From: Halothiobacillus sp.
Lineage (GTDB): Bacteria > Pseudomonadota > Gammaproteobacteria > JAAZVP01
Assembly: GCA_018623495.1 (NCBI GenBank)
Contig: JAAZVP010000018.1
Span: 1-44,631 of the forward strand
Length of the DNA: 44,631 nucleotides
Direction: 5' to 3'
In this document: piece after piece, positions 41,261 to 44,631 of the stretch
How the letters are laid out: every line of letters begins with the position of its first letter
How positions within the stretch are numbered: position 1 is the stretch's first letter
The notes under the pieces: model-generated
What the model was told of the DNA's origin: nothing
Seen by the model: the letters and a program-made list of their open reading frames with translations, nothing else
The model's database searches: none
Made by a program: the position numbers and the translations under genes

Positions 41261-42094
41261 ATGACGGCGCTGATCGCGGCCCTCGCCGAGGCCTTCCGCG
41301 GCGCCTCGCCGGTACTCCAGGCGCTGGTGGCCACCCTGTTCACCTGGGGAATGACCGCGGCCGGTGCCCTGCCCGTCTTTTTCACCGACCGCGAGAACCG
41401 GCGCCTGCTCGACATCCTGCTGGGCTTCACCGGCGGGGTGATGATCGCGGCCAGCTACTGGTCGCTGCTGGCCCCCGCCATCGAGATGGCCGAGGACGGA
41501 CCGCTGCCGGCCTGGTTCCCGGCGGTGGTCGGCTTCGTCACCGGGGCGATCTTTCTGCGCCTGGCCGACATGCTCCTGCCCCACCTGCACCTCAACGCCC
41601 CGGTCGAGGAGGCCGAGGGCGTCAAGACCACCTGGGAGCGCACCACCCTGCTGGTGCTCGCCATCACCCTGCACAACATCCCCGAGGGCCTGGCCGTGGG
41701 AGTGGCCTTCGGCGCCCTCGCCTTCGGCCTGGACTCCGCCAGCCTGGGCGGGGCCATCGCCCTGGCCCTGGGCATCGGGATCCAGAACTTTCCCGAGGGG
41801 ATGGCCGTCGCCATGCCCCTGCGCCGCGAGGGCGTGAGCCGCTTCAAGAGCTTCTGGTACGGCCAGCTCTCCGGCGTGGTCGAACCGATCGCCGGGGTGA
41901 TGGGGGCCGCGGCGGTGCTCTTCTGGGAGCCGTTCCTGCCCTATGCCCTGGCCTTCGCCGCCGGCGCGATGATCTTCGTGGTGGTCGAGGAGGTGATCCC
42001 CGAGGCCCAGCGCAGCGGCAACGCCGACGCCGCCACCATGGGCGTGGTGGCCGGCTTCGTGGTGATGATGACCCTCGACGTCGCCCTGGGTTAG
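41261..42094 (+). CDS. ZIP-family metal transporter
   Basis: [24 protein letters not shown] and [20 protein letters not shown], the ZIP TM4/TM5 metal-binding motifs; 277 aa. Confidence 0.93.
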
Positions 42095-42111
42095 CCGGGA
42101 TCTCAACCGAC

Positions 42112-42156
42112 CCGTCATCCGCCGGTCATCAATCGTTCAAGCAACCCGCCGAGAAT
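42112..42156 (+). promoter_or_regulatory. Pho-box-like tandem repeat plus -10 upstream of the phosphoesterase gene
   Basis: CCGTCAT-CCGC-CGGTCAT-CAAT-CGTTCAA (units at 42112, 42123, 42134; 11-bp period), then 10 nt, then GAGAAT (42151-42156). Confidence 0.6.
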
Positions 42157-42204
42157 GGTGCCGGAGCCAACAGGGGTCACCGGTCGTGACCCGGAGCGCC
42201 GGGG

Positions 42205-43032
42205 ATGAGCAAGTACAACAGTGTCTGGGTTTCCGACGTCCACCTGGGGCTGCGCGACTCCCAGGCCGACTGCCTCAACGACTTCCTCCAGCGGGTGGAA
42301 TGCCGCAACCTCTACATCGTCGGTGACCTGATCGACTTCTGGCAGGCACGGCGCGGCTGGTCCTGGACCATCGCCCACAGCCGGTTGATGCAGACGGTGC
42401 TCGCCCGGGCCATGGAAGGCACCCGGGTGGTCTACATCCCCGGCAACCACGACGAGATCGCCCGCGATTTCCAGGGGCTGGATTTCGGCGGCATCCGCAT
42501 CGAGCGCGAATGCATCCACGAGTCGCCGGACGGCCGGCGTTTCCTGGTCCTCCACGGCGACGAGTTCGACGGCGCCGTGCAGTGCCGCGTGCCGTCCTGG
42601 CTGGGCGACTTCGCCTACGACGTGCTGCTCGCGGCCAACCGCTGGGTCAACCACGCCCGCCGCCGCATGGGCTTCGGCTACTGGTCGCTGGCCAACTTCC
42701 TCAAGACCCGCATCCGCGAGGCCGCCACCCACATCGAGCGCTTCGAGAATGCCGCCGTGCACGAGGCCCGTTCCCGCGACCTCGACGGCATCATCTGCGG
42801 CCACATCCACAAAGCCGAGATCTGCGAGATCGACGGCACCCTCTACTGCAACGACGGGGACTGGGTGGAATCGGGCACGGCCCTGGTGGAGCACACCGAT
42901 GGTCGGCTGGAGCTCATCGAGGCCCTCGACGAGCAGCGCGTCCTGTTGCGCGAGGGCCGTCGCCGGGTCACCGGCCAGCCCGCCGGCGGCCTGGAGCCCG
43001 CGCCGCAGCACTCCCGCGACACCCTCGGCTGA
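42205..43032 (+). CDS. COG2908-type calcineurin-like phosphoesterase; PlcP-like phospholipase C or UDP-2,3-diacylglucosamine diphosphatase-like
   Basis: VWVSDVHLGLRDSQADCLNDFLQRVECRNLYIVGDLIDFW...VVYIPGNHDEIARDF...LVLHGDEFDG...GIICGHIHKAEI; 275 aa. Confidence 0.88.
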   Translation: MSKYNSVWVSDVHLGLRDSQADCLNDFLQRVECRNLYIVGDLIDFWQARRGWSWTIAHSRLMQTVLARAMEGTRVVYIPGNHDEIARDFQGLDFGGIRIERECIHESPDGRRFLVLHGDEFDGAVQCRVPSWLGDFAYDVLLAANRWVNHARRRMGFGYWSLANFLKTRIREAATHIERFENAAVHEARSRDLDGIICGHIHKAEICEIDGTLYCNDGDWVESGTALVEHTDGRLELIEALDEQRVLLREGRRRVTGQPAGGLEPAPQHSRDTLG

Positions 43033-43064: not shown

Positions 43065-44240
43065 TCAGTCGCTTTCCGCCCCGCCCTCGACCACCTCGCC
43101 GTAAAAGCCCGCCAGGCGCTCGGCCATCGCCCCGGCCGACCAGCGCTCCGCGTCGCCGCGGGCCCCCGCCCGCAGCCGCTCCATCCGCACGGGGTCGCCC
43201 AGTACCGCCACCACCGTTTCGGCGAAGCCGGCCACCGCGTCCGGGGCCAGTACCGCCCCCTCGGCGTCCCCCACCACCTCGCGGGTGCCCATCACCCCGG
43301 TGGAGACCACCGGCAGGCCACTGGCCAGCGCCTCCAGCAGCACCAGGCCCTGGGTCTCGGTGCGCGAGGCGAAGACGAACAGGTCGCCGGCCCGGTAGCA
43401 GGACTGCAGCCCGCCGTCGCGGTCCAGGTAGCCCACGAAGCGCACGTTGTCCACCAGCCCCAGGGCCTCGACATCGCGCCGCAAGGCGGGTTCCGCCGGC
43501 CCCTTCCCGGCAATCAGCAACAGCACGTCGGGGAAGGTTTCGCGCACCCGGGCGAGGACGTTGAGCAGAAAGCCGACGTTCTTCTCGAAGGCCAGCCGGC
43601 CGACGAAGACCAGGGTCGGCCGTTCGGCCGGGATCCCGTGGCGTTGGCGAAAGGCCGGGCCGTCGCCCGACTCGAACTGCCCGCGCTCCAGCCCGGTGGG
43701 GATGATGCGCGCGGTGGTGCCGATGCCGTAGCCGCGCAGCACGTCCAGCATGGCCCGCGAGGGCACCACCAGCCCGTCCACCGCGTTGCACTGGCGCCGC
43801 GAGAAGCCCCGGGCGGCGGCCCGCAGCCAGCCCGGCGGCATCCAGCGCATGTAGTTCTTGAGGTATTCCTCGAAGAAGGTGTGATAACTCTCGACTACAG
43901 GGATGCCCAGCCGGCGCGCGACCCGCACGCCCCGGTAGTGGGCGATGAAGGGGGTCTGCACGTGGACCACGTCGAATGCCTGCCCGGCGGTCAGGCGGTC
44001 GAGCGTCCGGTCGAGGTCCGCGCCCCGCATCAACCGGTCCTCCGGCGACATCACCACCCGGCGGGCCGGCACCCGGTGGATGCCCGGCTCGTCGTCGGGC
44101 TCGCCCCCGTAGGCCGGGCAGACCAGGGTGACCGAGTGCCCCTGGGCCTCGAGCGCCTGGCGAAAGAGCCCGATGGAAGTGGAGACCCCGTTGACCCGGG
44201 GAAAATAGGTGTCCGAGAGCATCAGGACGCGCATGGGCAC
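43065..44240 (-). CDS. GT4-family glycosyltransferase, possible Agt-like diacylglycerol glycosyltransferase
   Basis: MRVLMLSDTYFPRVNGVSTSIGLFRQALEAQGHSVTLVCPAYGG...VVESYHTFFEEYLKNYMRW...LVFVGRLAFEKNVGFLLNVL...ETQGLVLLEALASGLPVVS; 391 aa. Confidence 0.9.
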   Translation of the reverse strand: MPMRVLMLSDTYFPRVNGVSTSIGLFRQALEAQGHSVTLVCPAYGGEPDDEPGIHRVPARRVVMSPEDRLMRGADLDRTLDRLTAGQAFDVVHVQTPFIAHYRGVRVARRLGIPVVESYHTFFEEYLKNYMRWMPPGWLRAAARGFSRRQCNAVDGLVVPSRAMLDVLRGYGIGTTARIIPTGLERGQFESGDGPAFRQRHGIPAERPTLVFVGRLAFEKNVGFLLNVLARVRETFPDVLLLIAGKGPAEPALRRDVEALGLVDNVRFVGYLDRDGGLQSCYRAGDLFVFASRTETQGLVLLEALASGLPVVSTGVMGTREVVGDAEGAVLAPDAVAGFAETVVAVLGDPVRMERLRAGARGDAERWSAGAMAERLAGFYGEVVEGGAESD

Positions 44241-44336: not shown

Positions 44337-44364
44337 CCCGGGTGACCCCCGGGACGTTCCCGGG
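44337..44364. repeat. Three CCCGGG palindromes spaced exactly 11 bp
   Basis: CCCGGGTGACC CCCGGGACGTT CCCGGG at 44337, 44348 and 44359, in a divergent intergenic region. Confidence 0.8.
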
Positions 44365-44444
44365 TTCGCCGAATCGTCACAAAACCCTGCTAGAACCATC
44401 CGGGTAACGCCATTGTCGACGGCTCGAGGAGCGGAGGAAATCCC

Positions 44445-44631
44445 ATGGCCAAGCGACTGTCCCTCAAGGGGCTCAACGAAGAGATCGACAGCCTGCGCCG
44501 GCAGGTCCTGTCGCTGGAGAGGCAGGTCGAGCAGAAGGTCGGCTCGGCCTTCGGGTCCGCCCTTGCGCGTCTTCGAGGCGGCCCGGCAGCGCTCCCCCGG
44601 GGCGTCACCCCGGAGATGCGGCACCGGATGA
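44445..44631 (+). CDS. Small coiled-coil hypothetical protein, N-terminal part (runs off the right edge)
   Basis: MAKRLSLKGLNEEIDSLRRQVLSLERQVEQKVGSAFGSALARLRGGPAALPRGVTPEMRHRM, open to the window end; GGAGGAAA Shine-Dalgarno-like sequence upstream. Confidence 0.65.
   Translation, partial: MAKRLSLKGLNEEIDSLRRQVLSLERQVEQKVGSAFGSALARLRGGPAALPRGVTPEMRHRM

Follow-up and report, generated by a model that had tools for sequence, protein, structure and literature searches.

A probable PhoB-activated promoter in front of plcP in a bacterial genome of 70% G+C

In the gap between a metal-transporter gene and a phosphoesterase gene lie three short repeats, followed by a hexamer resembling a -10 element. 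Does this stretch act as a phosphate-controlled promoter, and is the gene behind it one that belongs to the response to phosphate starvation? We address both questions within the window, that is, the whole stretch of DNA analysed (44,631 bases), within the remainder of the 2.46-Mb genome and across homologous loci of other genomes. From the sequence evidence set out below, we consider positions 42112-42156 to be very probably a PhoB-activated promoter of class II type, driving plcP. The principle of PhoB control before plcP is already known, published plcP genes having Pho boxes (PMC4796936, PMC8528852), and the present site is a well-made further example. Its interest lies in the prediction of phosphate-controlled membrane lipid replacement in an uncharacterised organism with a genome of 70% G+C.

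Architecture of the array

Read directly, positions 42112-42156 give the string CCGTCAT-CCGC-CGGTCAT-CAAT-CGTTCAA-GCAACCCGCC-GAGAAT. An earlier note on this DNA had described three 7-mers at an exact 11-bp period, the first two matching the CTGTCAT half-site at six of seven positions and the third being degenerate, with the last unit ending 10 nt before GAGAAT. The letters read as that note has it: the units start at 42112, 42123 and 42134, a period of exactly 11 bp, and the matches and the distance are those listed here, with bit scores from a half-site model of orthologous promoters.

41261..42094, forward strand: zip, ZIP-family metal transporter (Pfam PF02535), ending 17 nt before the array
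42112..42118, forward strand: Pho-box unit 1, CCGTCAT, 6/7 to CTGTCAT; 9.0 bits
42123..42129, forward strand: Pho-box unit 2, CGGTCAT, 6/7 to CTGTCAT; 7.0 bits
42134..42140, forward strand: Pho-box unit 3, CGTTCAA, 4/7 to the E. coli consensus CTGTCAT with the KTCA core retained; 4.8 bits
42151..42156, forward strand: -10 element GAGAAT by direct reading, 10 nt past the last unit, 4/6 to TATAAT
42193..42196, forward strand: likely ribosome-binding site GGAG by direct reading, 8 nt upstream of the ATG
42205..43032, forward strand: plcP, by homology a calcineurin-like phosphoesterase, phospholipase C of lipid remodelling (275 residues)

The whole array falls within the 110 nt that separate the stop of zip (42094) from the ATG of plcP (42205), with 48 nt between GAGAAT and the ATG. 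An ordinary sigma-70 promoter with a -35 element was sought in the surroundings of the array (41900-42300) and none was found. This agrees with the promoter architecture proposed earlier, with the repeats in place of the -35 and the -10 about 10 nt downstream.

In E. coli promoters of the phoA type, the -10 is located about 10 nt downstream of the Pho box. The units of the plcP site, each a 7-mer in tandem with a 4-nt spacer, are also built like those of E. coli Pho-box promoters (two CTGTCAT at 11 bp; PMC4415409). Unlike these, the plcP site has three units, in a GC-rich variant (CSGTCAT/CGTTCAA) set in a genome of 70% G+C.

Under the proposed mechanism, scarce phosphate would lead PhoR to phosphorylate PhoB. 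Dimers of PhoB~P would then occupy, in head-to-tail order, the three 11-bp units that stand in for the missing -35, and would recruit sigma-70 RNA polymerase to GAGAAT, with transcription of plcP predicted to start near 42163. PhoB binding, induction by phosphate scarcity and the enzymatic activity of PlcP are all expected because of family membership. Directly before the ribosome-binding site, the plcP leader also carries a perfect 7-bp inverted repeat (42174-42192, GGGTCAC-CGGTC-GTGACCC), which a rough estimate places within chance expectation.

Rank of the site and its conservation before related plcP genes

Within the window, searched on both strands and having 70% G+C, the plcP site is the sole place where two units with at least 6/7 matches to CTGTCAT stand at period 11. 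For ranking, three units and a -10 at +10 were combined into one composite score, using a half-site model that is neutral to the spacers. The plcP site comes first in the window with 26.4 bits; the runner-up, at 14.7 bits, is the plcP array itself, read one unit out of register, and no independent site exceeds 10.0 bits. Not one of 12 million sequences simulated under an order-1 Markov model attained 26.4 bits.

As a bare 18-mer, scored with the orthologue matrix that includes the spacers, the plcP site ranks only fourth in the window, and equal scores are expected by chance about twice per window and about 120 times genome-wide. Much of the significance is therefore carried by the third unit and the -10. 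The low rank of the 18-mer arises because the spacers in other genomes are A-rich, and the spacer-neutral half-site model together with the -10 was therefore used.

Genome-wide ranking was done via pattern searches. The untrained pattern TCA-N8-TCA-N8-TCA-N12-A-N3-T has three matches in the 2.46-Mb genome, all of them before genes, compared to 0 for the reversed pattern used as control. In addition to the plcP site, the matches are the following:

G000:C28:57294-57350 (L148:1795-1850): four Pho-like units (CGGTCAG, GCGTCAT, CGGTCAT, GGGTCAC) at 11 bp, then 10 nt and GAGAAT, preceding a gene for a family 2 glycosyltransferase (GT2)
G000:C78:51305-51346 (L174:2806-2847), reverse strand: three Pho-like units in tandem with a -10, preceding a two-gene unit

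With their spacers, units 2-4 of the GT2 site read GCGTCAT-CGGC-CGGTCAT-CGGC-GGGTCAC, 10 nt before GAGAAT, and at 27.8 bits this site is the best composite Pho promoter among the fetched genome stretches. In the two-gene unit, the first gene has a signal-peptide-like start and the second a phytase-like domain. Several consensus matches with 2-3 mismatches elsewhere in the genome are located within open frames and were left out of the promoter count. The ranking by matrix that the earlier note had put forward as a check thus favours the plcP site, which tops the window as a composite promoter and is one of only three pattern matches in the genome.

Conservation was assessed at the level of proteins that are 42-57% identical. 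More specifically, upstream regions were taken from 95 homologues in this identity range, drawn from GTDB-derived collections and reduced to 91 once near copies were removed; the window itself was always excluded. On the coding strand of these 91 promoters, 61 TCA pairs occur at spacing 11, compared to 1-10 at each of the other spacings from 6 to 18. Unseeded motif discovery, started from random subsequences, returned GTCAY-N6-GTCAY, present in about 64% of the set, and a seeded motif model reached 14.4 bits vs about 8 for shuffled sequences; the reverse complement returned the same motif by symmetry and is therefore not a control. Arrays of at least 12 bits under the half-site model are found in 52 of the 91 plcP upstreams (57%), compared to 84 of 5,166 other 250-nt stretches from the same loci on both strands (1-2%). 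As these promoters also served to train the model, the 57% is somewhat flattering, a bias that touches neither the period count nor the unseeded runs.

Two thirds of these arrays (35/52) have at least three units, arrays of three to five units are frequent, and TTCA is a common core. An A at position 2 and a T at position 6 of the -10 hexamer occur at offset +10 in 22 of the 52 promoters, compared to 0-6 at other offsets; the site in the window has exactly this offset. No box was found within 250 nt upstream of two near homologues (L004, 56%; L045, 55%). Conservation in relatives, also suggested earlier as a check, is thus seen in the motif returned by unseeded discovery, in the peak at period 11 and in the position of the -10. 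At the level of sequence, we regard this comparative evidence as decisive for the Pho-box reading. It further shows a Pho array to be shared by plcP promoters across Proteobacteria, frequently with 3-5 units and at a fixed 10-nt distance to the -10.

These results also bear on the possibility that the array is a chance GTCAT-rich intergenic stretch, and that plcP is read through from a dapE-zip operon without phosphate control. In its favour, dapE, zip and plcP run collinearly, 27 and 110 nt apart, no terminator turned up in the zip-plcP gap, and single 18-mers with the score of the plcP site are common in the genome. Chance, however, fits poorly with a composite score that no simulated sequence reached and with genome matches that all precede genes while the control has none, and read-through does not account for a box and -10 spacing that recur in related promoters whose upstream genes are unrelated. 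We therefore assign this explanation little probability.

The regulator and the identity of the gene

A promoter of this kind calls for a cognate regulator. Contig C110 of the genome encodes PhoB (362 bits, cut-off 296), PhoR (422 bits, cut-off 334) and PhoU (219 bits, cut-off 130), as well as a PstS-family protein at 156 bits, which is below the cut-off of 207. In front of phoB stands CGTTCAT-CCCG-CTGTCAC, followed after 10 nt by TGCAAT, and in front of pstS GTTTCAC-ATTT-CTGTAAC, followed at the same distance by CAAACT. When all three are scored with the orthologue matrix, the plcP box (12.7 bits) falls in the same range as the boxes of phoB (13.8 bits) and pstS (13.1 bits), the very promoters against which the earlier note had wished to see it ranked. 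The locus and its genome accordingly hold the features by which a Pho-box promoter is recognised, namely direct repeats, a -10 without a -35, a cognate PhoB with sites of its own, and conservation before orthologues.

Could another regulator of the OmpR/PhoB family that uses 11-bp direct repeats, rather than PhoB, occupy the site? The genome does encode a further OmpR/PhoB-like response regulator on contig C2, which scores 176 bits against the PhoB model, and members of the family overlap in their half-site preferences. Against this, the same GTCAY units stand before this genome's own phoB and pstS, and in other organisms the downstream gene belongs to the phosphate-starvation response. We give this alternative very little credence and retain PhoB as the predicted activator.

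Other Pho-like sites were also observed. One of them, CTGTCAT-CGAA-TCGTCAA with TACGGT at +10 (G000:C61:1273-1306; L147), precedes the type II secretion system gene gspC, possibly a case of phosphate-controlled secretion, and CTGTCAT-CAAG-CGGTCAC stands upstream of a PhoH2-family gene (G000:C62:5178-5195, reverse strand; L139). In the window itself, a weak two-unit site on the forward strand (44363-44396, GGTTCGC-CGAA-TCGTCAC, with TAGAAC at +10) precedes a short open frame at 44445, cut off by the end of the contig, for which Pfam gave no match.

The reading of the promoter depends in turn on what the adjacent gene encodes. Its product carries the metal-binding motifs SDVHL, GDLID, GNHD, HGDEFD and GHIH, and is 46% identical over 237 residues to an S. 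meliloti homologue whose metal-binding motifs are the same. The gene of this homologue adjoins a LuxR/AHL-synthase (sinI/sinR-type) pair, and from this place at the sinRI locus we take the protein to be SMc00171 PlcP. The S. meliloti gene differs in having a weak two-unit box (ATGTCAT-CATC-CTGAAAC) and no adjoining glycosyltransferase. One 3.7-Mb S. meliloti record labelled plasmid pSymB (CP090106.1; H19, L156) contains the chromosomal sinRI-plcP neighbourhood, and its replicon label therefore looks wrong.

Identity is 48% to a P. aeruginosa homologue of the PA3219 type, the gene of which is followed by a family 1 glycosyltransferase; PA3219-PA3218 is the published plcP-agt1 arrangement of P. 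aeruginosa (PMC8528852). There too a Pho box belongs to the operon; before the plasmid-borne copy of P. aeruginosa plcP we find a multi-unit Pho array, CTGTCAC-GCAA-CGGTCGC-CGGC-CTGTCAC-AGTC-GTTTCAC. In the reverse search, the Pseudomonas protein found the window gene first with 262 bits, compared to 43 bits for the LpxH paralogue. On this homology the adjacent gene is plcP, not lpxH, and phospholipid-degrading activity would follow for its product from its family. Orthology thereby bears out the phosphate-starvation role that had been attributed to the gene.

That the gene encodes UDP-2,3-diacylglucosamine diphosphatase (LpxH, lipid A synthesis), leaving the box out of place, is hardly credible: the protein matches the NCBIfam LpxH models weakly (31-38 bits) and automatic annotation gives such genes that name, as for the homologues in plasmid records, but it fails the model cut-offs of 134-190 bits, a separate gene on contig C60 passes them with 259-271 bits, and the window protein is 46-48% identical to the PlcP references vs 24% to the genome's own LpxH. 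As plcP and lpxH are confused in plasmid annotation, the Pho array and its 10-nt spacing may help to distinguish the two.

Glycosyltransferases and the predicted lipid pathway

PlcP would strip phosphate head groups off membrane phospholipids, leaving diacylglycerol, which glycosyltransferases would convert to phosphate-free glycolipids. Two family 4 (GT4) genes are of interest here:

43065..44240, reverse strand: GT4 glycosyltransferase convergent with plcP (Pfam/NCBIfam), plcP-linked in other genomes
G000:C70:28200-29380 (L173:2201-3380): GT4 gene, the best Agt1 match, with a two-unit Pho-like box (GCTTCAT-CCCG-CGTTCAT), 10 nt and TAGCCT in front

The best NCBIfam models for the convergent GT4 are lipid glycosyltransferases, with scores below cut-off. 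In two other genomes, relatives at 48-50% identity lie downstream of plcP and in the same orientation, and across homologue loci a GT4 is found in that position in 60 of 96, as the literature also describes (PMC4796936). We looked for a Pho box before the convergent GT4 in the window and found none, the promoter score being below zero. We also considered this gene as Agt1 and rejected it, since P. aeruginosa Agt1 gives 68 bits vs 154 for the gene at C70:28270-29316. The latter sits among phosphorus-related genes, between PPK2 and PAP2, with PhnN nearby.

The locus thus differs from P. aeruginosa, where plcP shares an operon with agt1; the GT4 beside the plcP of the window is convergent and lacks a Pho box, and the best Agt1 match is on another contig. 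With the marine plcP clusters of types 1-6 (PMC4796936) it shares the Pho box upstream of plcP and a glycosyltransferase nearby, although the glycosyltransferase of the window is convergent and without a Pho box. The closest arrangement is that of Thiodictyon, where the same glycosyltransferase (59% identical) diverges from plcP and Pho-like boxes face both directions.

We tentatively suggest, as a possibility rather than the expected outcome, a dispersed Pho-controlled glycolipid pathway in which plcP, the Agt1-like GT4 and the GT2 with its four-unit array each have a PhoB promoter of their own, while the convergent GT4 would be phosphate-independent and use the diacylglycerol released by PlcP. 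If so, the glycolipid output of the convergent GT4 would be set by PlcP alone. At a contig end elsewhere in the assembly (G000:C45:3-74), 24 residues are 96% identical to the start of this GT4, which perhaps reflects strain variation or assembly redundancy.
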